Position numbers and translations under genes: made by a program. A stretch of 64,000 bases of DNA from Eucommia ulmoides (taxonomy: Eukaryota > Streptophyta > Magnoliopsida > Garryales > Eucommiaceae): contig CM028336.1 of assembly GCA_016647705.1 (NCBI GenBank), forward strand, positions 14,640,880 to 14,704,879, in the 5' to 3' direction. This document shows, piece by piece, positions 3,060-39,985 of the stretch. Position 1 is the stretch's first letter, and each line of letters starts with the position of its first letter. Under the pieces are notes generated by a model, which was given only the letters and a program-made list of their open reading frames with translations, did no database searches and was not told where the DNA came from.

Positions 3060-4814
3060 CACGTTCTCACTCTCCTTCTTGTCTCGAATCTCAATATCAA
3101 ATTCCTAAAGCAAGATAATCCACCTGATTAGATGAGGCTTGGCGTCTTTCTTTGCAAATAAGTATTGGATAGTGGCATGGTCCATATAGATGATCACCCT
3201 GGATCCTATAATGTAAGAACAGAACTTATCACAAGCAAAGACCACCGCTAACATCTCTTTCTCCGTGGTGGTGTAATTCTCTTGAGCATCATTAAGCGTT
3301 TTGCTTGCATAATATATTAATCGAAAAATCTTCTCCTTGCGTTGGCCTAAAACAACTCCAACCGCATAACCGCTTGCATCACACATGATCTCAAACGACT
3401 CATTCCAATCCAAAGCGACTATAATTGGAGCCGAGATCAATTTCTTCTTCATGGCATTGAACGCTCCCACACAAGCATCATCAAAAATGAAAAGGGCATC
3501 ATTTTTAAGCAAATGGCATAACGGCTTCACCATTTTAGAAAACTCTTTGATGAATCGCCGATACAAGCCGGTATGGCCTAAGAAACTTATTATTTCCTTC
3601 ACATTGATCGGTGGTGGAAGTTTCTCGATTGTCTCAATTTTCGCCCGATCTACCTCAAGCCCTTTGGAAGAGATCCAATAGCCTAAGACGATTCCCTCAT
3701 TGACCATGAAATGACACTTCTCCCAATTGAGAACTAAATGTTTCTCTTTACATCGGTTGAGAACAAGTGATAAATTGTAAAGGCAATGGTCAAAGGATGA
3801 ACCAAAGACCGAGAAATCATCCATGAATACTTCTATTATATCTTCCACCATGTCAAAAAATATTGCCATCATATACCGTTGGAACATTGCCGGAGCGTTG
3901 CAAAGACCAAACAGCATACGATGATATGCAAATGTACCATACAGGCATGTGAACGTAGTCTTTTCTTGGTCTTCCGATGCAATGGCTATTTGATTATAGC
4001 CTGAATAGCCATCAAGAAAGCAATAGTTGTCATAACCAAAGAGATGATCTAACATTTGATCTATAAATAGGAGAAGAAAGTGATTATTCCTTGTGGCCTT
4101 GTTTAGTTTTCTATAATCAATGCACACTCTCCATCCCGTGATGGTTCGTGTGGGAATTAGATCATTCATCTCGTTCTTAACAATAGTCATGCCTCTTTTT
4201 TTGGGAACAACTTGCATCAGACTTACCCATTCACTATCCGATATAGCATAGATGATTCCGACATGAAACAACTTCAACACTTCGACACGGACCACCTCCT
4301 TCATCACAGAATTTAGCCTTCTTTAATGTTCAATGGAGGGCTTGAATGAGTCCTCCATCAAGATTTTATGCATGAAAATAGTCGGGCTTATTCCCTTGAT
4401 GTCAGAAATAGACCACGCGAATGTGGATTTGTGTCGTTTTAGGATACTAAGCAGTTTGTTCTTTTCTTCTTGAGTCAAAGGCGATGAGATGATGACCGAA
4501 TCGGTGGAGTCCTCCCCCAAGAATGTATACCGAAGGTGATTCGGTAATTGCTTAAGAATTAACCCACTGTGAGGTGGATTTGGGGGATCGGACGAACTAA
4601 CTTCATCATCAAGGGTCTCTACTTGAACCAAATCCACTACGTCTTTAGGTATAGCTTTCAAAGATAGGACGTAGTCCACAACACCTTCATTTGGGGTTGA
4701 ACCTTTTTCACCAAAATCCCCCATCGATAGGAAATTTGTGAGAGTGTGCTCTAAAGGATCTCGATTGAAGTTTTCATGAAAGACTTCCCTAAAGCAGGAG
4801 TCTACCACTTCCAC
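3060..4814 (-). pseudogene. pol: Athila pol: reverse transcriptase and RNase H
   Basis: A 400-residue open frame (3105-4307) covers most of RT and the start of RNase H; a second open frame (4323-4814) holds the linker between protease and RT. RT motifs are [31 protein letters not shown] and the catalytic box [10 protein letters not shown]. The RNase H part shows [32 protein letters not shown] and [11 protein letters not shown]. The frame closes at 3105, but the domain continues downstream in another frame toward ADHLSQL near 3050. A stop separates the linker and RT frames. Codon quality is better here than in the rest of the element, but the polyprotein as a whole is broken. Confidence 0.9.
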
Positions 4815-5990
4815 TCAATTATAAGTTGTGCACTCATCCGAAAACTTAATTGTATTGAAAATGTTGGACTTCACTTTATCATCATTTACCCTCAATGTCA
4901 AGTGCCCATTGTGAACGTTAATCAATGCCTTCCTGGTAGCGAGAAAAGGCCTCCCAAGTATAATGGGAATCTCCTGGTCTTCCTCCATCTCCAACACGAC
5001 AAAATCCACCGAAAATATGAATTTGTCCATCTTTACTAACACGTCTTCAATTATTTCCTTTGGATAGGTCAATGAACGATCCGCCATTTGCAGAAAAATT
5101 GTAGTTGACTTTGTATCTCCAAGCCTTAATTTTCGGTAAACGGATGACGGTATGAGATTGATACTTGCTCCTAGATAACAAAGGCCCTGTTTGGTAACCA
5201 TTTCCATCCCAAATATTCCCATCCCATTCCCAGATTTTTGGGATTTCTGTTTGGGAATAACATTTGGTAATTTTTATTCCCGTTCCCATTTCATTCCCAT
5301 TTGAGAATTGTGCCTACTTTTTTCTTAAGAAATGAGAAAAAAAAAAGTTATTTCTCATTATTCTCATCCCATTCCCAAAAATTACTGACACTATTCATTC
5401 GCCTTCTGCTGCCAACCGACCGCCGTCGACAGCCATCTCCGACAATCGTCTTTAATCACATCCAGCATCACCGGCCGCTTACCGTCCGGCCACAGTCAAC
5501 CACCTGTCGGTCACCGTCCGGCTGCCCCCGCTATCTGGCAAAAAAAAAAATATTCTCAAAACAATTTTTTTTATTTTAGGATAAAATCGTTACCAAACGC
5601 GATTCAGTTCCCAAAAAAACAAAAATTATCGTTACCAAACGTAATTCTACTCCCATGAAGGAAATATAATTCTCATCTCATCCCATTCTCATCCCACTGC
5701 TGGGATGGGAACAGAAATGGTTACCAAACGCACCAAAGCATCTTCTCAAAGTGAGATTTCCTAATTGTGCACAGAATAGTGAAGTTTAAGGGATCTTTCA
5801 ACTTTTGAGGCAACTTCCATTAAAAGATCGCACTACATTCCCCCATAAGTTTAACGGTCTCATATTCCTCCAATTTCTTCTTCTTGGTCATGATATCTTT
5901 TAAGAACTTCCCATAATTGGGCATTTGTTCCAATATATCGGCAAACGGTATGTTGATACGGATTTTCTTGAAAATGGCAAGAAATTTAGC
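4815..5990 (-). pseudogene. Athila protease, split by an inverted-repeat element and with its catalytic Asp lost
   Basis: Downstream of the insertion, 4815-5182 encodes LGASINLIPSSVYRKL and later IPIILGRPFLATRKAL, the retropepsin-like protease of Athila. Upstream of it, 5735-5990 encodes the preceding segment ending KSHFEKM. The two halves join exactly when the 552-bp element at 5183-5734 is ignored. In this family the active-site motif is CDLGASIN; here it reads CYLGASIN, so the catalytic Asp is Tyr (GAT to TAT) four codons from the insertion point. Either change alone would inactivate the enzyme, which in the family cleaves the Gag-Pol polyprotein. Confidence 0.82.
5183..5734. mobile_element. 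MITE-like terminal-inverted-repeat element, copy A, inside the Athila protease
   Basis: The left end reads GGCCCTGTTTGGTAACCA and the reverse complement of the right end GGTGCGTTTGGTAACCA. AAA flanks both sides (5180-5182 and 5735-5737), and removing the element plus one AAA restores the protease codons. The element is 552 bp, has no coding capacity, and has a GC-rich centre between AT-rich arms. A truncated relative lies at about 42705-43079 in opposite orientation. The GGCC-TTTGG ends with a short duplication suggest a class II element, perhaps PIF/Harbinger-like, but the superfamily is not certain. Confidence 0.82.
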
Positions 5991-12066: not shown

Positions 12067-13977
12067 ATGAACACAAGGTCTAGTCACTCTTACCGATCAG
12101 AGAACATAAATCACCCGGTGAATAAACAATCCGATGAGGATATGTCACGAGCACTAAGGCTGGAAACCAGGGTCACAGCCCGACGAACGATCAACAAAGA
12201 AGACGCAGACGTTGAAAGGCGAAATATCAATATTGAGGGATAATCCCATCAACCAAGCCCCGCCCCGGGACTCTACTCGGGCCAGGCGTCCAGGGTCGTC
12301 GATGTCGCCAGGCTCGATAGCGTGGAACGCTAGCTCAATAAGTTCTAAGAATACGTCAACATTCTCTTCTCCCGTATTCCTTCACATCCGGTTGAAGGGG
12401 GGCCAGACCTCCATGTTGCGGAGGAGAGGGCTCGTTTACAGGAGTCCGTTGATTGAGCGCTCGTCTATCACAGACAGATGGCTCGGGCTCGGCCTCAAGC
12501 CGCTAACTGGGCACTAAGATAAAGAGATCTTGACCCCCCAGTGGCCTTAGCATCCATTTCAAGATCAGCTCAGGGACGACGGTCCGAAGAACGGCTGGGG
12601 TCACCACCGGCTCGAGGGTATAGCTGCCGTGAGCGATCCGAGCAGCGATCTCATCAAATCCGAGAGGTAGACTCCCACTCCCTGCCACAAGCTCGTAGGG
12701 GGGAGCCCAGGCCTACTGCCGGTAAGATTGTTGCCCCAAAGAGGGTGATGACTACGATGGAGCGACGTCTGGCAGAAATGGAGGCCACCTTCAGTCTAAT
12801 ACGCAATACCGGGAGAACCCCCGGGTTGCATACTGGAATCCGATCTCCTTTCACCATGGAGATCACGGAAGAGACAGTTCCGTACCGATTCTCCAACCCT
12901 CCAACGGCCCAGTACGATGGGACAACTGACCCGATGGACCATCTCTCCGTGTATGTTTCCCACATGAATATGCACGCTGCCACCAACGCAATAAGGTGTA
13001 AATTCTTCTCTCTCGGGCTGACCGGTTTGGCTAGGTCGTGGTTTAACGACCTCCCACCGGCCTCAATCTCCACATTCCTCTAGCTCGAGCAACAGTTCAT
13101 GGAAAGGTTCAGTCGGTCACGGCGTAGGCCGAAGACTATCTCTCACCTCCTCGGCGTCAAGTAGGAGGAGAATGAATATTTGGCTGATTACGTGCACCGA
13201 TTTTGGATGGAGTCTCTCATGTGTGAATGGGTGTCTGATGAGATGGCGCTCAATGCCTTTATTGGCGGACTAAGGCACATGAGGCTCCTAGATGACCTGA
13301 ATTCCAGGGCAGCAACCAGCCTCCGCAAGGTACTTGACCTCAGCGCCAATTTCTAGAAGGCCGACCTCGTCAACAAGATCACGAAAGAGAAGGAAGATCT
13401 TCTCAGAAAGAAATCCCAAGCCAACGAGGGGATGAGCCGATCTCAAGCTTCCAGGAGACTCCAAGCGGAGGGAAGGTTGTGGCCACTGCCCGGTGATAGG
13501 AGACCGCCTTCAAGTCCCCGCCATGTTGTTTACACTCCCCTAATCGCCTCCATCGCAACCATTTTTGCTGAGAAAACCGAAAAAGGCATTTTCTCACCTA
13601 CACCTCCCTAAAGGGGGAAACTTTTAGGAAGGTCGACCGATAAGTACTGCGACTTCCACAGGAACAACGGCTATGCTATCAATGAGTGCTTCTAGCTGAA
13701 GGAGGAAATTAAGGCCCTCATCCGAAAAGGTTACCTTGGAAATTACATCCGCCGACTCAACGAAGATCGGTCCGGCAGAAAATGACCATCACGACGGATA
13801 CGGAGGACAACGCAGAAAGCGGAATAATAACCGGGCTCAACCTCATGGTGAGTGAACTGGGGACGACTCTGACCTGAGGATTGACGATGGAATTAACGTC
13901 ATCCATAGTGGCTTGGGTTTCGATGGAGAGACGTCTTCTTCTCGGAAGAGGTACAAAGGCAAGAGTAAGAGAAAGGC
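12067..13977 (+). pseudogene. gag: Tat-like gag, first part (interrupted by a solo LTR)
   Basis: The frame starts at ATG 12067 (MNTRSSHSYRSEN), 75 bp after the LTR. The gag domain is around 12840-13400: PYRFSNPPTAQYDGTTDP, LTGLARSWFNDLPP, LEQQFMERFSR, LADYVHRFWMES, FIGGLRHMRLL. Downstream, KYCDFHRNNGYAINECF followed by LKEEIKALIRKGYL matches the region before the protease in this lineage. In-frame TAG codons stand where Gln or Trp would be expected, for example before LEQQF, after GVK, after ANF and after NECF. The frame is cut at 13977 by the solo LTR and continues at 15629. Confidence 0.85.
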
Positions 13978-15623
13978 TGGTGGCCGCTAAATATGCACTG
14001 TCACTTTCACCGCAAGCGTACAGATCAAGTTTTAGTATAGTGGACCTTTCAGTTGGGTATCGTATCCACAGGGATTGGTTGAAATTACTATTGAGTATCG
14101 TGATTGTCATAACCCGACTTTATCTAGGCGACAAAAATGGAATATAATTTATACTAATACTAAACTAAAATACTAATTTAATTAACTATACTATAAATAC
14201 TAATTTGAGATTGTTTAGGAGAGTAGATTTCCTAGGGATTAATGTTATTTACTTAAATGTGTTTGGTTTCGGTTTAGTTACCATTAATAGTGTTCGGCAT
14301 ATCCGACAATTTCGGTTCGTAAACTCCTCCATCACCTCTTTCGAGTGTAAGACGGGAGAATACACAACTTCGAATCAACGTCGAAATTTTTCTCAACGTC
14401 TTAACGACTCTTGGTCGCATGAGTCTCGCCTCAACGTCATTGATTGCACACAATCCAACTCCCTCCCGGGTTATTGGATCATTGCGTTGTGTTTACCCTA
14501 TCGATAATCTCAATTCTAAAACTCTCCCGTCACCTCTCTCGAGTGTAAGACGAGGGAATACGTGACTTTGCATCAACGCTGAAGTCCCTCTCAACGTCTT
14601 AACGACTCTAGGTCACGTGAGTCTTGCCCCAACGTTATTGATTGTCCACAATCCCATTCTCTCTCGGGTTATTAGATCGTGGCGTTTGTCTATTCTAGTC
14701 TGAATCCGGGGTTATCTCTTCCAAGAGTCAAACCCCGTATTCTCGATATGTAAATCTAATTACGATAAACAACAATAAGGCACACACAATCAACATACGA
14801 AGAACAACCAAGAACGAAATATAAACTTAACCAAAACTACATTTTCATAAATAAAATGTTAATCCCCATTTACAATCCATGTTTAGCTCAAGGTTCTAAC
14901 CATTTATACAATATAAAATGAGCTAAATATGCTCAACAATCTACAAAAATGAAGAAAACAAAGAGAGAAGCGAAGAACTTAGCCGATATCCAAAGATTTA
15001 GCGCTAAAACCGTAATCCAAAGATTTAGCGCTAAAACCGTAATCCAATTGCTCCTCCTTTATCTTCCTCTTCGGGATTGAATGCGCACTCTCCTAAACTC
15101 TCTCTCTATTCTATCTAACCCTAAGAAGGCCTTAATGGTCGGAGAGAGCTCAAAAAATAAGATGGGATAGGGTATTTATAGACAAAATATCTTAAAAAAT
15201 ATCTATTTTGCGCAGAGGCCACTGCCGAGGTGGTGGAGTATGTCGGTTAAGTTTCACCGAGGCGATGGAGAAAGCGGTGGCTTTAGAAGACATCCTGAAG
15301 TTTCTCCGCCATGGATGTGGATCTTGCATCGCGGCAGTGGATAATCAGCAAGATATGTCCCTTCTCAGCATCTTCACCATCGCGACGATGGTCTGGACGC
15401 CGTGACGGAGAGCTTGTTTGCAGAATCTTGCCGCCTTACTCATTTTTTCACCGTTTGCGATATAATTTGATCGTTTATGCTTCGATTTCATACATTTTTA
15501 CCCCACGCACCTGTTTTAATACAAAAAAAATAAAAATATATTAAAACATATAAAAATAACTATAAACGTACTCGAAAACTAACAAATTTGATTTGTAAAT
15601 ATGTAGGTAGATCACACCTATCA
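13978..15623 (-). repeat. Solo LTR with perfect 5-bp target duplication, inserted in Tat gag-pol
   Basis: The segment starts TGGTGGCCGC and ends CACACCTATCA, is 1646 bp, and is flanked by AAGGC on both sides (13973-13977 and 15624-15628). Removing it with one AAGGC rejoins the host frame as KSKRKAKQGIYKVN. Read on the minus strand it begins TGATAGGTGTGATC, like the Athila LTR at 7821-9242, and its distal part has an equivalent GGATACGATACCC motif. No internal region or second LTR is present, so it is a solo LTR left by recombination. It contains imperfect repeats around 14330-14700 built on GTCACCTCTCTCGAGTGTAAGAC and similar words. Confidence 0.9.
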
Positions 15624-15628
15624 AAGGC

Positions 15629-16350
15629 GAAACAGGGCATCTATAAGGTTAACATGGTAGATGTTGCCTCCCATAATGTGATCTCCTTCAATGAAGTCGA
15701 CCTGAGGAGGGTGCACATTCCGTATGATGACGCCCTGGTCATAACAACCCTAATCAATCATTTCAAAATCACGAGGATACTCGTCGATGGAGACAGCTCA
15801 GCGAATATTATCTTTAAGGGAGCTTTCGATAAAATAGATATAGAATCGAGCTCTGTGTAGCCCGTGAGATCCCCTCTCGTCGAGTTTGGTGGTGACGTAG
15901 TTAGTTTAGTCGGCTGGGTCTCTCTGCCCGTCACCGTCCATCGCCACCATCTGGTCCAAGTTCCTTATAGTTGATAGGCTATTTCCATATAATGCAGTCA
16001 TGGGTTGGCCTACTGTGGCCACCCTGAAGGCCGTATGCTCCCCATATCACCAGAAAATGAAATTCCCCGCGAATTCAGGGGTTGGAGAAGTACAAGAGAA
16101 CTAAGAGACTGCCCGGTCCTGTGCAAGAAGCGCCTTAGAGAAAAAATAGCAATTACAGTTGGGACCCGAGCTGTGTACCCCACGTCGGTTTGATGGGGAG
16201 CTCGTGGTCCTAGCTGACGTGGTTGAGCCCGTTCCGATCAATGATCCGCGTGCCGACGAACCCATCCCACGACCCCATGAAGATCTGGTCAACGTCCCCA
16301 TTCACCCCACTATAACTGAGAGGACGGTGAGGATTGGCACTCGGCTAGGC
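15629..16350 (+). pseudogene. pol: Tat-like protease region
   Basis: After the solo LTR the frame resumes with AKQGIYKVNMVD, then HIPYDDALVITTLINHF and RILVDGDSSANIIFKGAF. The retropepsin motif in this lineage is VDTGSSA or VDSGSSA; here VDGDSSA keeps the Asp but loses the Gly. A TAG follows at 15858 and several further stops precede RT, so the polyprotein cannot be continuous. Family role: maturation of Gag-Pol. Confidence 0.75.
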
Positions 16351-16379
16351 CCAGAAGAGTGATCCAACCTCACTGAGCT

Positions 16380-17290
16380 GCTGGTGAGGAACCACAATAT
16401 TTTTGCCTGGTCGCACAACGAGCTTCCCGATATTAATCCCAGTGTTGCCATGCACCGGTTGCACACTGACGTTCATCATCCACCTATTCACTAAAAAATA
16501 AAGAAGTTCCATCTAGACTGGAAGAAGATAATAAAAGAGAAGATGAATAAGCTCGTCAGGTCAGACGTCGTAGAAGAGGTCAAGTTCCCGGATTGGCTTA
16601 CGAATGCCGTGTTGGCCCCGAAGGCCGGCAACAAATGGAGACTTTGCGTCGACTTCAAGGATATAAACAAGGCCTGCCCGAAATATTTCTTTCCCCTTCC
16701 AAGGATTGACACCGTAATCGACGCTACGACGGGGCACAAACGACTCAACTTTTTTGATGCTTATGCCAGCTACAATCAGATCCCCATGTATCTCCCAGAG
16801 AAAATAAAGACCTTGTTTATCACAGATAAAGGCACTTATTGCTACAAAGTCATGCCATTTGGCCTCCGCAACGCAGGGGCAACCTATCAGAGACTTATCC
16901 ATAAAATGTTCAAGGAGGAAATCGGGAACACGATAGAGGTGCACATCGACGATATGCTCGTGAAACGTAGTCCGGCTAAAGATCACCTCGACCACATCTA
17001 GGCCTACTTCGATAAGCTCTAAGCTCACTGCATGAAGTTGAATCCAAACAAGTGTATTTTCGGCGTGCCCGCCGATAAATTCATGGGCTTTATGGTCTCC
17101 CAACTCGACATTGACACAAACCCCAACCATATCAGCGTGGTTCTCGGCATGGCCCCTTCTCAGAATAAAAAGGAGGTCCAAATGCTGATAGGTTGGTTGG
17201 CCGCCCTAAACCGGTTCATCTCCAGGTTATCCAAAAAATGCCTCTCATTTTTCAAAATCCTCTGGGGTAACAAGGCATTTGAATAGACCG
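16380..17290 (+). pseudogene. pol: Tat-like reverse transcriptase
   Basis: A 152-codon open frame (16543-17001) carries WRLCVDFKDINKACPK, FFDAYASYNQIPM, MPFGLRNAGATYQRLIHK and the catalytic box VHIDDMLVKR with both Asp residues. Two stops follow (TAG in HLDHI-AYFDKL, TAA before AHCMKLN); the thumb continues as MKLNPNKCIFGV, DKFMGFMVSQ, AALNRFISRLSKKC. The stop before the finger region is TAA where CAA (Gln) is expected. Frame +1 is otherwise kept throughout, so most damage is by substitution rather than by indels. Confidence 0.87.
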
Positions 17291-25935: not shown

Positions 25936-26004
25936 TGGGTTATCTATATCTATATCTATATATCTATCTATATATATATATGTGTGTGTATATTTTTATT
26001 TTTT

Positions 26005-27896
26005 TCAAAAAAATAACTCAAACCCGGGGTCCCGGTTTGTGCTGAAAAACCAAAGAAACCTGAGGTTAAAAATCCCAGGTTTTGGCATCATTTTTCGACA
26101 AATGAAGTGGTGTGTTCTATGCTAGAGAAGTTAGAGAGAGAGAGAGAGAGAGAGAGAGTTCATTTGTGTGTGTGAGGGAGAGAGGCCAAATTTGTGACCG
26201 AGATAGAGAGAGAGAGTTACATGTGTGTGAGACAGAGGGAAGAAGTAGTTAGTAATTGTGTGTGAGAGATAAAGACTTTGAGTTGAGAAAGAGAGATGGA
26301 GCTACATTTTATAGAGGAGAGTTTCGTAAATTACACTTATAATCCCTTTACCTTATTGTAGATTTTTTTTAAATGCATTATGTAGTTTATTCTATTTTAA
26401 TTTTAAATTTAATATAAATCTCTTAATTATATTTTATCTTGTATTTTAATTCAATAGTCAATATTTTTTTTATATCTTTAATCAAATACTTGTAATTAAG
26501 ATTTGTATCATCGGCCACTAGTGTCACCTACTTCCTCCCATCGCCAAATTTTTTTTAGTTACATGTAACTATTTTTTAAAAAAATATATTTTTAGTTATA
26601 TTTTAATATATTTTTCAGTTAAAACAAAAAAATTAATTGAATTTGACGAAAAAAATATATTAAAAAAATATTAGTGAGAAAATATTCAAAAATAATCATA
26701 AAGTTTAGGTGTTAAAATGTAATTTTTTTTCATCAAATTTCCTTTTCCACGAGGAGAGAGCACTAAACAAACTTTTCATCTAATTTTTAAAAAATATTTA
26801 TGATAAAAAAATAAATAAATCAAAATTAAAATAAAAGGACAAATTTGTCTATTTTATAAAAATTAAAAAAAAAAATTATTTCATGCATATTCAGTTAATT
26901 TAAATGAAAAAAATAGTTTTAACTTTGTTCAAAGGTACAAATAGGTAAAGTGGATTATTTTAAAGTAAAAGAGAATAAAGTGATAATTAAATAAAGTAAT
27001 GAGGAGATAAAATATAATTTACTCATTGCAACTTTGTTTAGTGCTCCTTCCCTCTCCTCGTGGAAAAGGAAATTTGATGGGAAAATTGCATTTTTTACCC
27101 CTAAACATTTTGACTTCTTTTGAATACTTTCTCCGTAAATTGGCTTGAGTAAATTGCCTTTTATCCGTTCATTACTTTGTCTAATTATTACTTTATTCTC
27201 TTTCACTTTAAAACGATGTATTTTACCTATTTTTACTTTTGAACAAAATTAAAATTATTTTTTAATTTAAATTAACTGAAAATGCATGAAATTAATATTG
27301 TTATTTTATTTTTTGATGGAATAGACAAAATTATTCATTTATTTTAATTTTGATTTAAATTTTTTTATCATAAATATTTTCAAAAAATTGGATGAAAATT
27401 TTATATATTACTTTCAAAAAATTGGATGGAATATTGACTATGAAACTAAAATACAAGATGAAATATAATTAAGAGATTTATATTAAATTTAAAATTAAAA
27501 TAGAATAAACTATAGAATACATTGAAAAAAAAAAAAAAAGACAAATATTCTACAATAAGATGAAGGGACTATAAGCGTAATTTAGTAAAGTCTCCTGTCT
27601 AAAATGTAGCTCTCTCCTTTTCAACTCAAAGTCTCTCTGTGGCACACAATTACCAATTACTTCTTTCCTCTTTCTCACACACATGTAACTCTCTCCCTTA
27701 CTATTTCTCTATCTCGGTCACAAACTTGGCTTTTCTTTCTCCCATACACAAACAAGCCCACTTTCCCTTTCTCTAACTTCTATAGCACAAAACACACCAC
27801 TTCGTTTGTTGAAAAAATTATGCATAAACCCCGGGTTTCTTTGATTTTTCAGCACAAACCCGAGGTTTACAACCCCGGGTTTGATTTTTTTTTTTA
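26005..27896. mobile_element. Compound inverted-repeat (foldback) element
   Basis: The outer arms, about 26005-26480 and 27430-27896, are inverted copies: both show CAAACCCGGGG, TTTGTGCTGAAAAA, GTGACCGAGATAGAGA, AGAGTTACATGTGTGTGAG and CTTTGAGTTGA. Two further segments inside, near 26676-27040 and 27041-27415, also occur as inverted copies around CCTTTTCCACGAGGAGAG. No coding sequence was recognised. No target duplication could be fixed because both sides are TA repeats. It could be a Mutator-type foldback element with a nested second element. Confidence 0.75.
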
Positions 27897-27928
27897 TTAT
27901 ATATATATATATATATATAGTGAAAGTG

Positions 27929-27963: not shown

Positions 27964-28404
27964 GGAAGTTGCATTTTTTTATACTCGGGGTTGGTGAGGG
28001 TTGTGCAATAAAGATGGAAAACATCATTTTTCAAAAAATAAGTTTTAAAAAACTAATTTTTTTGTAAACAACTTCAATTTCGGTCCCCAAGTGACAATTT
28101 TAAGAAATGGTTTATTTTATAGAAGGTTTTATTTTGACTCCAAAACTTTATTATTTCTCAAAATTCATCAAATTAACAATCAATTTCACTTCGTTTTTTC
28201 AAATTGGGAATTCCAATAAAAAAATGGATATTTTAATTTCATTCTTTTCAAACTAATTTGAGAAAAATCATAAAAATTGCATTTTAATTAGAGTTTTTTA
28301 TTAAATAGTCCCTTATAGAGAGATCAGTTAGAGTAAAACCCTTTTCACAAGACCGTTTAGGACTCAGACCATCCCGTACGATGGGTTTAGATTTCAGTCC
28401 TCCG
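27964..28404. other. AT-rich flank and likely left end region of the MULE
   Basis: No gene was recognised before the first transposase exon. The MULE border must lie in this stretch or slightly left of it. The right flank does not contain a clear inverted copy of it, so no terminal inverted repeat could be defined. Confidence 0.4.
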
Positions 28405-28685
28405 ATGAAGACAAGGCGAACGGCAATGGACGATAATACCCCTATTCACACCGACGAGCCAAATGGACGAATCGTTTTGGTTATGGTAAGCGACAAAACA
28501 GAGATTTTCATACGCTGATTCAAATACATGTACGACATTCCTTATACAGGCGCGGATTTTCAAAAACATTCGATTCAAAATTGTAGGCGTTGCAGAACCG
28601 ATACGAGGTGAACATTTTGAAACGACGGCGACGGCGGCTATATCACGCGACGGCGACTATATCACTGTGTCTAAAGGCGAAACAG

Positions 28686-30012
28686 GTCAGTTACTCGATT
28701 GTATTCATTGAAAAGTTATATAGTCGCGTTTAATATCGTTTTTTGGGTTTTTCGGAGTTGTTACAACGTTTTCGAAGTTGGATGTTCGAGTTTGGCGATG
28801 AACGAATGCCCATTTGTGAATAATGTACACTCCTGAGGAAACGTAAGCAGCACGTTAACGTTAATGCACTGGGGGTTTATTTTGTACATCACGACGTAAT
28901 AACAATGTCAATATAAGCAAACACAGTCAGGGTGTTTAATATCGTTTTTCGGGTTTTTCGGTGTTGTTACAATGTTTTTGGAAGTTGGATGTTCGATGGG
29001 TGGCGATGAATGAATGCCATTCGTGAGGAATATACGCTACGAGATAACGTGAGCAATGCGTTAACGTTAACGTACTTCCGGTTTTTGTGTGTATGACAAC
29101 GTAAGAACAATGTGGATACAATCAAACACAGTTAGAAAATGGGTGTACATGGTAAACTTAACTAACTCACAGTTTTTCAGCTTTTTTCTGAAAAGTAAGA
29201 TGCTCCAAGATACAACGGTTATCGGGGTGTATTCAACGAAACGCTTTCAACGTAAACATGTTTTAACTGTAACTATTTTTTTTTTGCGTTAACGTTAACG
29301 TAATGATTGTACACTGTAAAGTTATTTAACTCACAGTTTTTTCAATTTTTTTCCAAAAAGTAAGATGCTACAAACTACAGAAGCACTCGTTTTGTATTCA
29401 ATAAACAATAAAACGGGTAACGTTAACAGGTTTTTAACAAGCTGCTATTTTTGCGTTAACGTTAACGTTAAATGCATTACCTAAAAAATGCATTAACGTT
29501 TACGAATCAGTGTAGTGTTGGATTACGTTAATGTTAACACATTAAGTAATGCATTTAACGGTGACGCATTAAGTTAATGCATCAACGGTGACGGTTTACA
29601 ATGGTCAAACCACGAAACCTGATTTTGTGGATGTATTTTTTTTTATTCCCAAAATTTTTGCGTTAACGTTAACGCATGAAGTAATGCATTAACGTTTACG
29701 CAATCAGTATAGTGCTGGATTGCGTTAACGTTAACGCATTTAGATAATGTATTTAACGGTGATGCATTAAGTTATCTAGACTGTTTTTTTCCCGCACAAT
29801 TACGCATTTTAAGTTTATGTGTTAACGGTTACGCAATTAATCTAACTGCTGGACCAGAGTAACGCAGTGTTAACGTTAATGTAACCCCTGTTTTTACAAG
29901 TCAATTTGATTGCGTTAACGTTTACGCATTTACTAGTAAGCGCGGTTACAGATTAATGTTTATCTACTGTTTTTTTCTTCCACTTTAGGTTTGCATCTGT
30001 CTGATCTTGCAG
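28686..30012 (+). repeat. Transposase intron 2: tandem duplications carrying the TTAACGTTAA motif
   Basis: The 1327-bp intron contains a two-copy tandem repeat of about 206 bp (28731-28936 and 28937-29141, starting TAATATCGTTTTT) and a second of about 165 bp (about 29145-29309 and 29310-29475, with ACTCACAGTTTTT and AAAAGTAAGATGCT). Each unit has a TTAACGTTAA copy at about the same place. Further copies and near-matches continue to 29930. Introns this long and repetitive are unusual for a transposase gene. Confidence 0.8.
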
Positions 30013-31128
30013 ATTTACTCGGGGGGTCAATGGCTACACACATATTTTTTATGTGCAAGTTTGATGGTTACTCGTTGGGCGTCAAGGTGGATGATGATTT
30101 CACGCAAGCGGTGCTTATTCAAAATGTGTTGTCGTGGTAGGACGTGTTGAGGGATGTTTCGTTCGAGATGTTTTATTCCATACCAGGGCATGACAGGTGC
30201 CTAATATCGTGTCAGGATGACGTAGAGGTAATGGTTAGCCTTGCACGAGCAATGAAGCTTGAATATGTCGGGGTGGAGATAAAGGTACGCGGCAGAGGTA
30301 GCGGACCAAGCGGCAGTCGGGACAGGATGTTATTTGAATATCTAACGGGACAGGGGGAGCGGGATTGCATGGACGGGGAGGACGACATGTTGTCCGTTTT
30401 CTGCCCATTGCCTAAAAAGGCATTATTGTCCGATCATTGGGCTGAAGGTCTTAAAGAAGCCGGGCAGATTTTTAAGGGTGGAATATCGGAATTTAGAGAA
30501 TCACTGAGGAAATATGCTGTACAAATGGGTTTCACATTTCAGTACATAAAGAACGACAAGAAGAGGGTGACAGCTGAATGTTCGCTCAAGGAGGAGAGGG
30601 ATTGCAAATAGAGAGTGCATGACAGGCTAGACGAAATGAATGGGTTTTTTTACATTTGGGAGTTCCAGAGAAATCATAGTTGCGGCGCTGCTTATAGGAC
30701 AGCGAGGAATGAGAAGATGAACTGTAGCGTTGTGAAGTCATGTCTTTTAGACTTAGTTCGGAATACCCCGTCAACTCGCCCAATTGACGTTGTTCACACG
30801 TTCAAGAACAACTATGGGATTGAGATCCCATATCACATTGCATGGAATGGCGTGGAAAAAGCTCGGGATGATTTGTACGGCGACCACGAATCGTCTTATG
30901 ATCAATTGTGCTGGTACTTGGATGCATGCAGGCAGACGAATCCAGGCAGCCACCTGGCGTTGGATTATGATAAAGAAACTAGGCATTTCAAGAGACTGTT
31001 TGTATCGTTCTATGTGACTGCGCACGGGTTCAAATACTGCAGGCCGATGCTGTTTCTAGACGGGACATTTCTGGGGGGTAGATACAAGGGGTGTTTGTTG
31101 GCGGCCAGCGCAAATGATGGAAACAATG

Positions 31129-31443
31129 GTAAATTGGTTGATTACTTATTACATAAACGCAATAACACTTATCGTTAACACATTAGATGCAATTAACGCT
31201 TTCCTTTTTTTTTTTTTACATTTTTTTTAACAGTCTTTGCGAGGGGGTGTGGGGGGTGGGGGATGTGTGTGTTTCTGATGAGACAAGCTGATCATGTTTG
31301 GGGATGAGTAATGGAATTTTTTTGCAACGTTAACGTTAATGCGTTAACGTTAATGAGTTAACGTTAACGCATTAAACGGCTGTGTATACAATATTTTTTT
31401 TCATTGCGTGATGATATGTTTTGTGTTTTTCGTAAATGGACAG
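31129..31443 (+). other. Transposase intron 3
   Basis: The 315-bp intron begins GTAAATTGG and ends ATGGACAG, splitting the codon for Gly in NNG-LFPVAF, a place where the family sequence is otherwise continuous. It has three adjacent TTAACGTTAA copies at about 31327-31372. Confidence 0.75.
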
Positions 31444-32481
31444 GTCTTTTCCCGGTTGCATTCGCTGTTGTTGATGCAGAGAACGATGACAACTGGTATT
31501 GGTTCATGACCAATTTAGAAAAAATTGTGGCGAAAGAACGTGTGCTAACCTTCATTTCTGATCGACATAGTGGCATTCTTGAAGGGGTCCGGAAGATGTT
31601 CCCAGATTGTTTTCATTCTTATTGCTTGAACCACCTGAAGAACAATATGAGAGACAAATTAGCGGGTTTGAAACAAGCGTGGAAGGAGAAGCTCGTGCAC
31701 AAATATTCGATGATGGCATATGCGACGACGCTTGACAAATACTACCAGCTGAGGGAAGAATTAAGAACAGAAGGTATGGGACGAGTAGAGAATTTCCTAG
31801 AGGATGTGCCGCCAGACAACTTATGCAATATGTTTTTCAAAGGCAAAAGATATGGGGAGATGTCATCCAACCTAGCGGAGTCATTCAACGCATGGATTCG
31901 TGATTACCGGCACCTGCCGATCATATTAATGGTCGACAAGATTAGGTGCAAGGTAATGAACCAGTTGTCAGTGAGATGTGCCGAATCACTCCAGATGACG
32001 GGTTTCCTATGCCCAGTACGCGACAAAATATTGTCGCGGATGATAAGTGACGGGCAGACGTGGAATGTTGTTGAGTGCGGCAACAATGTATATGAAGTGC
32101 ACTCGATCCCATCTGTTCTGGTTGATGTGGATAAAAAAAAGTGCTCCTGCTTCGGGTGGCAGGAAAACGGGTTCCCGTGTGTTCATGCTTGTGCGGCGAT
32201 ACAAAAAAAACGGCCAGAATATACATTCATCCGATGAGTCATTTTTCTTGGTGGAATATTACCGAATGACCTACTCGGAAGGTATATATGGTGTACCCAC
32301 CTTCGAGAAATCGGAATGGAATGCATCGGAAGCTGTAATTATCCCGCCGATCACAAAAAAACAACCAGGTCGACCGCGGAAGAAACGCATCCCATCAAGG
32401 GGTGAGATCCCAGAAATAAGATGTGGTAGATGCAAAAAGAATGGGCACCACAACAGGAAGACATGCACTGCTTCAATTTAA

Positions 32482-33670
32482 AGCACAGAGTAATCAAATA
32501 TTCCCTTTTATGTAGTTTTGACACAGCAACACTTTATGTGTTTAATGTCAGTGGGGGGTGGAACCTCGTTTTTTTACATGATGTTTTTGTTTTGCGTAAA
32601 CAGGTAACGAACACACACAAACTTTTTTTTGTGTTTACGTCAACGCAAGTATGATTCGCACATTTTAATGTTCAACGCTTTCATAATTTTTTTGTATATA
32701 TTTAATCGCATTAACGTTAACGCATTTACAAGACCCACCTCAACTAATCGCCCATGGTTAAATGCCTTTTTTTTGTAACCAACCAGTTAAGAGCAATCAC
32801 AGTTTGCATTAACGTTAACGCGAACGCATTTTACAACCAAAAAACTCAAATAACTAATCGAGTAAACATTAACGGTTTTTTATTACAAACCAGCATAAGA
32901 GCGATACAACTACGTTAACGTTAACGTGAACGAATATTACAACAACTAATTGTGTTAACATTAACGCAGTAAGGAAACCATCACATGTAACTTATAACGC
33001 GTTAACATCACGACAAATACAACCCAGTAACAAAGTCAAACGTTAACGCAGTTCTTTAAAGTTCAGAAACAAAACAACTGCATTTGTTTTTGCGTTAACG
33101 TTAACGTGAACGAAAGTACAAATTGCATTAAAGTTAACGGATTAACAAACCAGCCCATTTAACATATTTGCGTTAACGTTAACGCAATTAAGATACAACT
33201 ACGTTAACGTTAATGCAATTTTTTTAAGCATTTAAGGTAATTTGCGTTAACGTTAACGCAATATTTTACAGACCTGAACAAATCAAAAAAAAATTGCGTT
33301 AACGTTAACTTGCAAACGTCAAAATTGTTCAGTATGACCAACAAACTAAACCAAATCTAAACATTAACTAAGCCCATTAACGTTAACGCGTTGGGTTACA
33401 GCCAGCGCATGTAAAATTACAAATTGCGTTAACAATTAACACAATTACAAACCCAACATCAAATTCAAAAGGCAAAACATTCAACGCAATAAATCAACGG
33501 ATGAAATAAGAGTTAATTACATTTTTGTTCGAGTCAACAATAACGCATTTGCACGTTAAAGCACTGATAAAACACACGCACCCACAATCGCAAAAAATGA
33601 ATAAATCAGGGGGATATATACATTTTCTCAGATTTTTGTTTCGTATCATTGATAAACTCCCCCCCACAGG
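32482..33670. other. Noncoding centre of the MULE between the convergent 3' ends
   Basis: About 1.2 kb without a recognisable gene. It holds about nine TTAACGTTAA copies, most extended to TGCGTTAACGTTAACGC, spaced roughly 30-150 bp apart between 32705 and 33390, plus many single-step variants. Polyadenylation signals for both genes are probably here, but none stands out. Confidence 0.6.
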
Positions 33671-33882
33671 TCAGGTTGTGCCCTGCTCTGGTTGGGTTGT
33701 TTCAACATCGACGCCCACCATGGGGACCCAACTGTAGTGCGGATGGTTGAGCAGAGCGTGTATTACGTCTCTCCGGACACCCCGTACATCTGCCACCGAT
33801 AGTTTTTTCGGGACGGGCATATTTGTAGCATATTGTTTCATAATGTACATAACAAAAATGCCGCAATCAGTCCTGCAAACCC

Positions 33883-33898
33883 GGGGGGGGGGGGGGGG
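33883..33898 (-). other. G16 run forming the polypyrimidine tract of the last intron
   Basis: On the minus strand this is a C16 run 10 bases before the acceptor TTTGCAG that precedes the exon with TDCGIF. A pure-C polypyrimidine tract is unusual, and homopolymers of this length are prone to length change. Confidence 0.7.
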
Positions 33899-36220
33899 AA
33901 GGTAAACAGATGAGAATGATAAATTTGCAAATACATACAATTTTTAGTACACATGTTTCGAACGGGTGAACTTACGCCCCGCGTTGTTGTGGCGAATCGA
34001 GACATTGTTCTATACGTGCGTCACCCCAATCTGGATGTATTTTCATGTTGATATGTCGTTCCACAAACCTTTTCTGTTCAGAATTTAGGTTAGTCAAACA
34101 AAACAGAGTGTAGTTAGAGACAATCAAAGTAGTCACACATTAAATCACATACCACCGTAAGTGCATCATTATAATAATGATCGGTCGTGTTCTTCCTAGG
34201 TCGGATGGAATTGTAGAACGTCCATTTTTTATCGGGTATATCCAGCACCATTACAGTCCAATGATTGGGTGACGCATGGCGACCGGTAGTGTTCATCGGG
34301 AACACAATATAACGGGTTTCTTTGCTGAACGCGGCGGAGATTGTGTAGTACAGTTCCTTCAGCAGCACATTGTTGTCCTCCCGTATAAGATTCTATGATT
34401 TTGTTTTTACGTGTTATCTAGTTTGGATGAAAAAGGAAAAAAAACTAACATGTGCTAAAGTGTCTTACCCAAATGCATGATAGCGCGAACCGCGTTTCGT
34501 GCAGCAGCACGATTGGCGTGGTCATCCACACGCGATTGATCTAATTTGATCTTCCAAACACTCTCCATACGAATCAATAACCTGTAAGTAAAGGGAGGGA
34601 GAAAGACAAACACGTTAACTTAACGTTAACGTTACGTTAACGCAAATTTTGTCAACACAAGTACATTTTTACGAAACAAGTTGATGTAATCAGTTAATCA
34701 GGTCAATCACAAACACTATGCTGACGGTTTCATACATTATCCGACACACGTCGCTCCATAATCATGCAAATGATGTCGCCACACGAGACCGTGGCCATGG
34801 GTTTCCCACCTCCAAACACAAATGTACTGGAACATTGTCAAAAACAACATATCACATGATCAGCAAACATTTTTATGGAAAAAGAAATTTCAAAAGTAAA
34901 CAGGCACTTTGAGTAATTTTTTATTTTTTACCCTGGTCCCTTTTTGGAAATCACAATCAACTTCTCCCAATCGTTGTCAACAAGCATCGCACCAACGGTC
35001 GTCGAATTATGAGCTGGGAGTACTGCATTGTCTTCATACATCGTTTCCAGGGGGAGCTCATCGACGTTAACTATGTCAGATCTCTCTTTCTGCTTCCCTT
35101 TCCCTTTTGCTTTGGGGTAGACAAAATTGCTGCCTTGTTTCTTTGGTTGCCTCTCCTTTTTCTTTACCCGACCAACCATGGAGCTAACTTTTTGCGTTGC
35201 CTCCCCAGGCAACGGCGCATCGGGGGTGTCAGTCGGCATAACCATAGACAGCGGTTGAGGTTCTTGAGGAGGTTCTTGAGGTTCGCGAACTGCGAGAGTG
35301 GTAGGGGTACCCCTACCCCCCATTTGCATGTGGGCGTTCAATTTCGTCTGTAGGTCCTGTATTTGTTTATTGAGCGCCACACGCATTTTAACGTCTGATT
35401 TGGCTATCTCCTTCTTCTCTTGCCACAACAGTTTGTTTATTTCTTGTTCTGCCTTCAAGTCAAGGGCAAGATCATTATATTTCTTCTTCATTTCGCCAGC
35501 AGCATCAACATGTTGCTGATTCAACGTTTCGATTATTTTTTTCAGTGTTTCCACCTCCTGGGCAAGTTCGTCATATCTCCGCCTAAGGTTAGCTTGTTCT
35601 GTATCGACGGCGGCCTCTTTATACTTCTGAGTCACGTCATGCACGCTCATTTCCGTTAGGATGTCTCTCTTCTCCCCAATTGATTTCGCTAATCTTGCAG
35701 AGAGATTAGAGACAGAACGCTCATAACTTTCTTTTTCTTGCAAAGACGACGCTTTCAGATTATCAATCTCCTTTTTTTTCTCGACTTTGGCAGCGGTTAT
35801 GATTGCGATCACCCTATGCAACGCTGCAATGGTCTGATCTTTTTCCATCTTATTCGTAGAGAACTCACCCTGCATTTGGTCGATCTGTCTGCGGATGTCA
35901 TCAACTGCACCTGCGGAGACAGATGGTGGCCTCAAGTCACCCACTGAAGGTGTGCAAAATGCACTCTCAGCGGGGGCAGCATCATCACCCAAATCAGTTG
36001 CGGTTTGAGTTGGGACGGGAGAAGGATGATATATGAGGGGTGTGAGATACCGCCCTATGATGTCGTCAACCATTACATCATAGCCATCATCAGCAGCAGC
36101 AGCGTCTGGATCTCCGCCCTTATTGCCCGGGCTATCGTTAATTGAGTCATTACTATCCTCTTTCAAAGCAATCCCCATTTGAAGCTCTGCCAAAGTCTCA
36201 TCAGCGGGCTGATCTTTCAC

Positions 36221-36723
36221 CTGGCAAGCATGTGCAAGCATTAACGTTAACTGAGCCACACACACACACCCCCCTCCCTCCCAAAAAAAAAAAATAACTA
36301 ACTGATTGTGTTAACATCAAAGTTAAATTGCTTGCGTTAACGGTAAATATAAGCACAAAAACCAACAACTAAGCTCGCTAATGCTAACGCAAATAACAAG
36401 TCAGCCACAAACATCTCTGGGTTTTGTTTATTGCGTTAACGTTAACGCACTTATTTATTGCGTTAACGTTAACACACTTATTATTTTCTATAACGCACTA
36501 ATTATTTGCGTTAACGTTAATGCACTTATTATTTGCGTTAACGTTAACGCAAATTAGTTATATGCTTTAACGTTAACGCATATAACAATCCAGCCATACA
36601 TAACTTATATTGCTTTAACGTTAACGCAACAACTAATTGCGTTAACCAAAACGCAAAATATCACATACCATGTTTTACGTACTAGCATCAAAGTTAAAAG
36701 CACAACATGTTTTTTTTGTTTAC
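36221..36723 (-). repeat. Third intron of the Ulp1-like gene, rich in TTAACGTTAA
   Basis: The intron between exons 3 and 4 (503 bp) has at least seven copies, six of them within 36431-36630, mostly in the forms GCGTTAACGTTAACGC and GCTTTAACGTTAACGC. One copy is 20 bp upstream of the exon 4 acceptor. Confidence 0.8.
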
Positions 36724-37642
36724 CTTATCAGCTGGCAGTAGCCCGAGGGGAATGCCTCCCAAGTTGGAAGAAAAAGTAGTGAGGCACCACCGCTCCAAAC
36801 GCGGCACACTATGCTCCCTACCCTCGGTGTGGTCAACCAACGTTGTGTGCTCGCACAACCAATACTGTAAGTAAAAGTTGTAATATGTCAAAGTAAGGTC
36901 CACAAACAACACTTGTAATTTGAAAAACGTTTTTCACAATGAGTATGTGTATACCTGGAGAGCAAGCACGCATCCCGTGACCGACCGGGGTTCCATGTAC
37001 GATTTCTTGAGGTTGGTTTCGAGATCTGTGAATATCGCAGCTGTCCAGTTGTAATTTGCCATGTCTTCAATCGTTTCAACATAGCGAACCAACGATTTCT
37101 GGACCTGCTGGCCAGTTGTTGCAAAGAAGAACATGGTCATCAGGTGTAGAATAACCATGCGCACAACATCCTGCACTGTTTCATTGTCCGTGGCGTTCAC
37201 ATTCGCTTGCACTTGTGATCTCAAATATGCAACACTAAACCTGCGGTCTGCGAATGTTAGCTTGGATATGAAGGGAGAGTGGATTTTGTGTAGCGACTCA
37301 AAACAATGGGTTCTTCGCCCGTTGCTATCCCGAATATAAGCTGGATGTCAAGCGGGGTTATCCGGATGAGCCTGCCTCCTATCCTAAACCCCCCACGTGC
37401 AGGGTTGTAGCATCGGATGATCATTTCAATGAGATCATCATTTTTGTGGACGTTTTCAAGCGTCACTCGCTGCTCATATAATGTCTCGAATATTTTTGCG
37501 AATGGGGTCCTGGCCAGCAGCATCTTATGCTGATCATTGAGTTTGCACTCTTTCAACAATTCATACGTCTGCTTAAGGTTAGAACGATAAAGGAATGTCA
37601 TCTGGCTCGAGCTTTCCTTTTTCGGTTTCTTAAGGAGTTTTA

Positions 37643-38572
37643 CTGGAAGAACGACATGGAAACATAGTTAATGCACATTACAAGCCACACGTTAACGTTA
37701 AAGCAGTCATCCATATCCCTCGTTATGTAACAAAAATAGGCAACTATTTGCATTAACGTTAACGCACAACAATATATGCGTTAACGTTAACGCATTTTTT
37801 TCAAAAACCAAAATATCGTACCAGATTTGAGAAAAATACAGACGAGTAACGCAAAACGGCCCCCTCCCTTTTTTAAAGCAAATGTTTATTTGCGTTAACA
37901 TTAACGCAATTAAATCCATGCGTTAACGTTAACGCAAGACGCAGCACATAGTGGTGTACCAGACAGACAAACAAACAAACCTAAATCTAAACACAAGACT
38001 CACTTTAATGTTAACGTTAAAGCAGTCATCCATATCACTCAGTACGTAACAAAAATAGGCAACTATTTTGCTTCAACGTTAACGCACCACAATATATGCG
38101 TTAACATCTTTGCATTTTTCTCAAAAACCAAAACGTTGTACCAGATTTGAGAAAAATACCGACGAGTAACGCAAAAGGGTCTACCTCCTTTTTACAGGCA
38201 AATGTCTATTTGCGTTAACGTTAACGCAATTACATCAACGCGTAAACGTTAACGCAATCGCAGTACATAGTGGTGTACCAGACAAACAAACAAACCTAAA
38301 TCTAAACATACGACTCACATTAAAGTTAACGTTAACGCAAGCATTCTTTTTAAATTCATTCTTTTCGGAGGCAAAACAACATGTGGGTCAACATCGCAAA
38401 ACCACGAAACAAAACACAACGTACGATTTCAAAAAAATGTAAAATCAAAACAGGGGAACAGAGCATGTCAGAGTCGAGTAAAATAGACGAACATCATCGT
38501 CTCGTTTTGTGATTTTGATTTCTAAAACGCTGTCGCCGAACAAAAGTGTATCGATTTTAGGGTTTCACATAC
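37643..38572 (-). repeat. First intron of the Ulp1-like gene: about 319-bp tandem duplication with palindromic motifs
   Basis: Two copies of about 319 bp (about 37683-38001 and 38002-38325) share GCAGTCATCCATATC, AAAAATAGGCAACTATTT, CCAGATTTGAGAAAAATAC and TAGTGGTGTACCAGACA. Each contains several TTAACGTTAA copies, including extended GCGTTAACGTTAACGC. The intron is 930 bp, and in both genes the repeats lie in the intron nearest the element's outer end. Confidence 0.85.
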
Positions 38573-38636
38573 CGTCGAGACTGATGGATCCTCGTTTCTG
38601 TGTCGAAGACGAGGGGGCGCGTTCAAAATTCTCCAT

Positions 38637-38876
38637 TATCTGAAGACAGCTGGGCAATTTTAGATTATTAGTTTCAGGGTTTTAGGGTTTCAGAATTCTT
38701 AAGCGTGGAGAGAATAGATAGCGTGGAGAGAATAGAGAGCGTTTTAGCGATTTTTTGTACTCGAACGTGCAGTTAGTGGAACGTGTAGCAGGACATATCG
38801 GAATCAGAACGGACGCGGTAACAACGCCGACTACTAACAGCGCGTTAACGTTAATGCAATCCGCTACTGTTAACAG

Positions 38877-38924
<48 letters not shown>

Positions 38925-39985
38925 CCATTGCAAAGATATCGGCAAGCTCTTTAATTCGATCACATTTTTATATGATTTCATTCATAAATCAGGTATATAG
39001 AAGCGGATTACATATTAGGGGGGTTTATTTAGTGCCCTGTTCATGTTGTTGTGGGTTGTATCCTCAGAATGGCATGTTCCATAAATAAACTGTAAAAGGA
39101 AGGGCAAAATAGAAGGATTTTTTCCTAAAGAATTGAGGTGGTCTGAAAACTTAATACACATTGTACTAGGGTCTAAATTGTGAAGTAGCCTCTAACAGAG
39201 GACTAAAAAATAAAATACCCTTTTAATTAAGGGAAAGTGCCCCTTACACCTAAATTACTTCTTCCGGAATAGGATAAGGCATCGGATCCCCCTTGGGAGT
39301 GGAAGAAAAAGGTTTTGGGATGATCCTTAACCATTGCCACTATTGGGTATTACCTGTTGGAGTGAAAACCCTTGACATTTCACGAAATACCAAAAATAAG
39401 TGGGGCTAAAATGTAAAAACCACGCAATAGGGGGGTTGTTAGTCACTAGGCACTCCTTGCGCATTCAACGATACACATGCATACCCTCGATGCGTGGATT
39501 AGGGAACGCCTATAAAAGGCAACACCTCCTCCTATTTTTCATACACACTTGATACACATCATCCAACCTATACACTTTAAATACTAGATCTTCCTACACA
39601 CAACACTCATATCTTACCCCATTATCTAGTTATCCCACCATTTTCTCTCACTAAAACTCCCCTTAGACACACCTTTATTTTCCATTTAAACCGTTTGAAA
39701 TCGAAGACTAATAAAAAAAAAAAAAACTAATCCAAGGAACACTTAAAAAAAAGTCATGCATTTTACTTTTGTTTACTTTACTTTTTCGTATTTATTTTTC
39801 CGTTCTGCATCTTTCCGTGCTTTTACTTTCTCCCATTTACTTTCCTATTCTGAGACTTTCCGTACTTTAACTTTTCTGCACTCTACTTTTATGTATTTAA
39901 CGTGTTTTCGTGATTTATTTTTCTGCAACTTTACTTTATGCACTTTAGCTTATGTATTGCATTTATATTTATGTACTTTTTAACA
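38637..39985. other. Right flank of the MULE, then AT-rich DNA before the Copia element
   Basis: Bases 38637-38876 are probably the outer end of the MULE: they contain a 21-bp tandem pair (AGCGTGGAGAGAATAGA) and a last TTAACGTTAA at about 38846. An A47 run (38877-38923) follows. Bases 39480-39520 have CCTATAAAAGGC and then a CA/CT-rich leader-like stretch, as in a promoter or a retroelement LTR. Bases 39750-39985 are simple TTTACTTT-like sequence. No coding gene was recognised. Confidence 0.45.
39505..39520 (+). promoter_or_regulatory. Possible TATA box
   Basis: GCCTATAAAAGGCAAC is a good plant TATA match followed by a pyrimidine- and CA-rich stretch. Which gene or LTR it served is not known. 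Confidence 0.35.

Follow-up and report, generated by a model that had tools for sequence, protein, structure and literature searches.

Known systems and the Eucommia element

The closest described systems are VANDAL21/Hiun with the protein VANC21 and VANDAL6 with VANC6, both of Arabidopsis thaliana (Hosaka 2017, PMC5735166). In the sections of that paper on which we draw, the VANC protein binds short words in intronic and intergenic DNA, the density of the words matters, the arrays of VANDAL21 turn over through tandem repeats, and related families use different words; the region that defines specificity is left to future studies. Ulp1-carrying Kaonashi (KIU)-type elements recognise specific motifs and lose methylation, according to the part of a review that treats them (PMC13317346). 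Here we describe a locus of Eucommia ulmoides (assembly GCA_016647705.1, contig CM028336.1, positions 14,640,880 to 14,704,879 of the forward strand), a stretch of 64,000 nucleotides that we call the window. It contains a Mutator-like element (MULE) of 10,930 bp at 28291-39220, with a transposase gene, a second gene convergent with it, and a palindromic word repeated in the non-coding DNA. We consider that the element probably belongs, as a defective copy, to a large MULE family with VANC-type, sequence-specific anti-silencing, in which the second gene's protein recognises the palindrome and shields copies of its own family, because the pattern is the one published for VANC21 and VANC6 and for the Ulp1-carrying KIU elements. 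Sasaki, in 2022, is said to have found anti-silencing systems with DUF1985, DUF287 and Ulp1 across eudicots.

As in VANDAL21 and VANDAL6, so far as the sections of PMC5735166 used here describe them, a MULE transposase is paired with a second gene, which is rapidly diverging and of DUF1985 type there and PMD/DUF1985-like (below cut-off) here. Also alike are the dense short word in introns, intergenic and terminal non-coding DNA, the tandem repeats that vary between copies, and a word that differs between related families, following the VANC protein. From the same descriptions, the VANDAL words (YAGTATTAY and AGTTGTCC/AGTTGTAC) are non-palindromic and CpG-free, whereas the word here is palindromic and contains three CpGs, and VANDAL21 arrays share one orientation, which the palindrome here (class A in what follows) does not have. 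VANDAL elements carry three genes (VANA, VANB and VANC), whereas only two were found among the open frames of this element. Activity is proven for the VANDAL systems, whereas for the system described here it is predicted.

With the KIU MULEs that lack terminal inverted repeats (non-TIR), as the relevant part of PMC13317346 portrays them, the element shares a Ulp1 domain in a VANC-like gene and the absence of long terminal repeats. Unlike that type, it has a PMD-like region rather than a clear DUF1985 match, short imperfect terminal repeats and two convergent genes; its word does not appear in that part of the review. The second gene is antisense to the transposase gene, as is the PMD gene of certain MULEs (Dupeyron 2019, PMC6446971) and, in some cases, the ULP1-like region of grapevine MULEs (PMC2528002). 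A SWIM transposase is common to both of these sets and to our element, as are duplications of 9 bp in several of the listed groups; a motif array is not mentioned in the portions of the two papers on which we draw, whereas one is present here. Because the DUF1985 match is below cut-off, and because a single orientation, periodicity of the sites and the three-gene layout are missing, we do not file the element as a proven member of the VANC systems. Its kind is already known (VANDAL and KIU MULEs). New, as far as our comparison with the literature goes, are the words themselves, the occurrence of at least four of them on one protein tree in one genome, and a target that is a palindrome and holds three CpGs. 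The motif is reported in no title or abstract opening among the listed papers on VANC, VANDAL, Ulp1 and PMD, a set to which the motif list of Sasaki 2022 does not belong. Of 725 papers matching the motif strings, the 20 listed do not, judging by title, concern such systems.

A palindromic word restricted to non-coding DNA

Exact copies of TTAACGTTAA number 36, all between 28855 and 38854 and none elsewhere in the window (shuffled sequences gave a mean of 0.18 and a maximum of 2). The first-pass annotation of the window had reported about 36 copies confined to non-coding DNA, and had thought the motif unlike the VANC words. The first observation is confirmed: none of the 36 sites lies within the 5,318 bp of inferred exons, all 36 being intronic, intergenic or 5' (a chance of ~4e-11 for independent sites in the 10,930-bp element). 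None of the VANC21 and VANC6 words given above occurs in the element. TTAACGTTAA, which had been taken as the unit, is part of a longer one, the 18-bp palindrome TGCGTTAACGTTAACGCA. The window element has nine perfect copies of this palindrome, and agreement with it at each arm position ranges from 25 to 32 of the 36 sites. The palindrome can be seen either as a pair of inverted 9-mers that abut or as a tandem pair of GTTAAC, and its three CpGs are placed one at the dyad and one in each arm.

The sites are spread over seven distinct stretches of non-coding DNA, with 4-14 per kb in each. Eight are in intron 2 of the transposase gene (28855-29879), among local tandem duplications, and three, 14 bp apart, are in its intron 3 (31330-31367). 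Nine lie between the convergent genes (32711-33386, 7.6 per kb). Within the second gene, one site is in intron 5 (34620-34629), seven are in intron 3 (36241-36624, 13.9 per kb) and seven are in intron 1, in a ~320-bp tandem repeat of two copies (37691-38339); the last site is 5' of this gene (38845-38854). Many sites are close to 5' ends or in early introns, which are typical places for enhancers, and this would suit a host transcription factor driving the element's expression. However, site density is no lower between the 3' ends of the genes or in the second gene's intron 3, and the several different words in related lineages, described below, would be odd for a conserved factor, which makes a host factor highly improbable.

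Subterminal repeats in CACTA or hAT elements are transposase binding sites, and the palindrome could likewise be bound by the transposase and serve transposition. The transposase has a DNA-binding domain (DBD_Tnp_Mut), and since both genes are on one element, congruence of the word with exon 2 of the second gene would arise in the same way. Against this explanation, sites are present in all ten tenths of the element's non-coding DNA, and the outer 564 bp on the left and 366 bp on the right are free of them. We regard a transposase binding site as quite unlikely.

Word and protein diverge together

The genome searched comprises 946,670,599 bases in 391 contigs. TTAACGTTAA occurs 17,635 times, against 5,658 for the reversed control, and exact TGCGTTAACGTTAACGCA 1,015 times, against 0. 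A search with exon 2 of the second gene identified at least 150 matches, from 95 to 55% identity (150 scored of 2,391 candidates). All of the best 30 relatives (90-95% exon-2 identity) have an array, with 9-21 sites per 3.7 kb; none of their 445 sites is in exon 2, and the class-A word is absent from the exon-matched stretches of every locus counted. The first-pass annotation had suggested checking whether motif density tracks the two genes in other family members; among these relatives, identified by exon 2, the array is present in 30 of 30. The first 50 listed 18-mers are all on contig C1, and 28 of them have a scored exon-2 match no more than 10 kb away, where 0.19 are expected. A second relative carrying both genes was also found (L006/L007).

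Fifty loci (L016-L065) were picked by protein match alone; L046-L065 are 20 of the 120 remaining scored rows, chosen across the identity range and mostly full-length. At least one class-A site is present in 36 of the 50, and the 14 without any are exactly those at 64% identity or below. Per 1.5 kb of 5' intron, class-A sites number 8 (at 81% identity), 8 (79%), 4 (75%), 4 (71%), 1 (68%) and 3 (67%). Most of the 14 class-A-free loci have other repeated words: class B (TGAGTTAACATACAC-type) in six, class C (GTGAACATCAAC, with AGAACATTTACG) clearly in three, and class D or D' (GGACATTCAC, GTGAACATTCAC) in four, the label being the commonest of five patterns with at least two sites. In L046-L051, which have longer exon matches, the words are outside exons, except for one shorter class-D match in L046. 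Other words are present at two loci: sites resembling ATGTGAACATTCACAT, an imperfect palindrome, in L061, and five copies of GTTGAATTCA plus two class-D sites in L050.

The final exon-2 tree has 36 rows, including 14 of the 31 class-A rows (the window and L016-L045); an earlier tree had 39 rows with more than 150 exon-2 residues. Class A is on one side of a branch (97/90), with the nearly word-free L056 just outside, and class C is on one side of another (100/100), as is, weakly, class B (81/55); D and D' group together (87/71). The word classes require 6 changes on the exon-2 tree, versus a mean of 14.4 for shuffled labels, and none of 200 shuffles was as low. Word and protein diverge together, and at least four word classes are present in one genome. 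The first-pass annotation had stated that family members lacking the motif would count against its idea. Such members exist, namely the 14 diverged loci, and most of them hold another word, as the VANC model predicts.

The word appears to have outlived its surroundings, because it is kept in some pairs of loci whose introns hardly align. The window element and L057 have the class-A word in common with 0% of the intron alignable, and the class-B word is common to L051 and L059 on one side and L047, L062 and L063 on the other, over introns that are 1-18% alignable, with 2 to 11 sites outside the alignment.

The second gene and the transposase

The first-pass annotation had described two convergent multi-exon genes, and domain matches bear this out: a transposase gene on the plus strand and a Peptidase_C48/Ulp1 gene on the minus strand. 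Exon borders of both come from splice consensus and reading frame alone, not transcripts. The second gene (33671-38636, minus strand) has nine inferred exons for ~976 residues, with exons 1-4 at 38573-38636, 36955-37642, 36724-36864 and 34932-36220, and exons 5-9 at 34736-34826, 34469-34581, 34153-34392, 33976-34073 and 33671-33872. A PMD/DUF1985-like region is in exons 2-3, and exon 4 looks like a coiled coil in a by-eye reading of the sequence. The last three exons encode a Ulp1 domain (Peptidase_C48, 4.3e-14), which in a VANC-like protein is a feature of the KIU type. Aligned to SENP5 and Ulp1, the protein keeps His, Gln and Cys and has Asn where Asp is usual. The same Asn is found in L006 (L006 9643-9882; window 34153-34392, minus strand).

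Exon 2 is constrained. Its frame is open in 17 of the 30 close copies, and among these 17 loci (136 pairs) the median ratio of nonsynonymous to synonymous substitution rates (dN/dS) is 0.22; we report the median because pairs of unequal length, which were not realigned, inflate the mean dN (0.119). In a database search that required shared 5-residue words and similar length, no relatives were identified at E<=0.001 for residues 22-300 of the second-gene protein (1,153 candidates) or for its Ulp1 part (206 candidates). The transposase, with 40 proteins, is the only one of the queried parts with any relatives; it is 45-50% identical to the eight best of the 40, which are mostly from Camellia or unnamed short contigs.

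The transposase gene (28405-32480, plus strand) has inferred exons at 28405-28485, 28550-28685, 29989-31127 and 31445-32480, the first two being the least certain. Its Pfam matches are all above cut-offs (MULE 1.1e-17, DBD_Tnp_Mut 7e-13, SWIM 3.5e-9), and this set of domains is the one expected of a MULE.

We predict that the second-gene protein recognises TGCGTTAACGTTAACGCA through its PMD/DUF1985-like region, at many intronic and intergenic sites, with the palindrome probably recognised by a symmetric pair of protein units. In copies with a dense array, host silencing would then be removed or blocked by the protein. The coiled coil could serve to pair its subunits, and silencing proteins linked to SUMO could be the targets of the Ulp1 domain. 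Target words may have changed alongside the diverging protein lineages, so that each lineage would free mainly its own copies. The idea of anti-silencing is strengthened because a VANC-type system predicts both arrays and co-divergence of word and protein. As an interpretation, the family-specific anti-silencing of the first-pass annotation is partly supported: the weak PMD/DUF1985 match, the arrays in all 30 close copies, the co-divergence and the word that, in some pairs, outlives its introns speak for it, and binding and demethylation are the steps that it would entail.

Weighing the anti-silencing reading

Several observations, in this paragraph and the next, weigh against anti-silencing by the second-gene protein. 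Neither protein can be made intact from the window copy: the transposase gene is interrupted by two in-frame stops and a frame break, the second gene by frame breaks in exons 2 and 6. The matches of the second-gene protein to PMD (2.4e-6) and DUF1985 (0.0049) are both under the Pfam cut-offs; DUF1985 is matched at 0.0005-0.008 in five of six relatives and not in the sixth, and neither PMD nor DUF1985 is matched in L047. Site spacing in the window copy has no 10.5-bp phasing (p ~0.64-0.67); helical periodicity of site spacing is among the features reportedly described by Sasaki in 2022. Some loci have few sites: two class-A sites in 10 kb of L009 (71% identity) and one in L056 (68%), two class-B sites in L065 and three in L062, and a weak class C of two sites in L060. 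Moreover, 22 of the 50 listed 18-mers are more than 10 kb from a scored exon-2 match (two of them in L006/L007), and 20 are tied to no found gene. The patterns of classes B-D were fixed after inspecting the loci, and among five control loci without an exon match, two (L011 and L013) contain a 9-mer seven times. Because of these post hoc labels and these controls, our argument rests on words shared across loci and not on an excess at any one locus.

It is also conceivable that the arrays have no reader and simply result from tandem duplication and common descent. Many sites are within tandem or local duplications, and inside the duplicates the word has no clear advantage in conservation over its surroundings (8/91 versus 104/697 mismatches). 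Repeated 9-mers can arise in loci without an exon match, as the controls illustrate, and in several other within-class pairs the intron is alignable over 80-99%. The congruence of word and protein must be partly shared ancestry, as non-coding DNA is inherited with the gene. However, the same word is present in seven separate non-coding segments of the window element, it persists in relatives whose introns no longer align, and class A is missing from exon-matched stretches in every locus counted. We judge arrays without a reader to be unlikely.

The first-pass annotation also held the motif to be private to the family. Against this speak two clusters of the motif in which no gene is recognisable (L005 and L008), and the 20 untied 18-mers. 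L005 has 19 TTAACGTTAA sites in 1.4 kb (L005 5730-7107; G000:C1:4893730-4895107) and no gene match. Its arms are often TGCATTAACGTTAATGCA (by eye), with the arm CpGs altered, and it aligns to the window element only over short pieces that bear the motif; the cluster is possibly a non-autonomous relative. In L008 (2164-8858; G000:C1:3424001-3434000), motif sites flank open frames that look Copia-type by eye, and no element gene was found. This locus may be a motif-bearing element split by a retrotransposon insertion.

Gain and loss of sites

Tandem repeats, with copy number gained or lost between copies, are called in 15 of the 30 close copies: eight have units of 293 bp (one of 287 bp) in 2.3 to 4.4 copies, and seven have a 320-bp unit in two copies, with none called in the other fifteen. 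Among sites with one mismatch in these copies, a transition at the central CpG (C-to-T or its complement) accounts for 145 of 267 and all other changes for 122, a tally that counts shared ancestral changes repeatedly. With borders of 28340-38876, the observed/expected ratio of CpG is 1.56 in the non-coding DNA of the element, 1.02 there with motifs masked, 0.96 in exons and 0.85 outside; CpG is not depleted in the element. Given the tandem repeats and the central-CpG variants, the word seems to be gained via duplication and lost mainly via CpG transition.

A more tentative extension, which we find rather doubtful, is that the anti-silencing target is itself a methylation sensor: the protein would bind only the unmethylated word and, with the array, form a two-state switch. 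Bound copies would stay unmethylated and keep the word, and silenced copies would be methylated and lose it by deamination, so that silencing would erase the target and tandem duplication would restore it.

Borders and neighbouring features

The borders of the element (28291-39220) were set because copies diverge at ~39220, because a 9-bp duplication is present on both flanks, and because the ends carry terminal repeats. The same 9-mer, TTTTAATTA, flanks both borders as the left (28282-28290) and right (39221-39229) target site duplication, and its length is within the 8-11 bp usual for MULEs. The left border was examined in the window copy alone, and the duplication likewise comes from this one copy. 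Terminal inverted repeats of ~32 bp are found at 28291-28322 (plus strand) and, by alignment to the left end and comparison of copies, at 39189-39220 (minus strand). They are short and imperfect (24 matches in 33 alignment columns), which fits the absent or short degenerate repeats of VANDAL elements. The right edge at 38876 in the first-pass annotation was placed too early. It abuts a poly-A tract within the element (38877-38923), beyond which genome copies can still be aligned; the window copy, L038 and L025, compared by eye, separate at ~39220.

Directly left of the element is a foldback-like long inverted repeat (25989-27913) whose arms are 75-83% identical. Further left in the window, at 3105-5273 and 12523-17001, open frames resemble, by eye, pieces of a long terminal repeat (LTR) retrotransposon polyprotein.

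Implications

How VANC-type proteins find their words, and how word and protein change together, are questions to which the at least 150 exon matches of this genome, and the at least four words that follow the protein tree among the loci sampled, could be applied. This material should suffice for mapping the residues that set specificity, through comparison and through domain swaps. With a palindromic target that contains CpGs, it would also be possible to test directly whether systems of this kind sense methylation, and more words would become available for sequence-directed demethylation tools.

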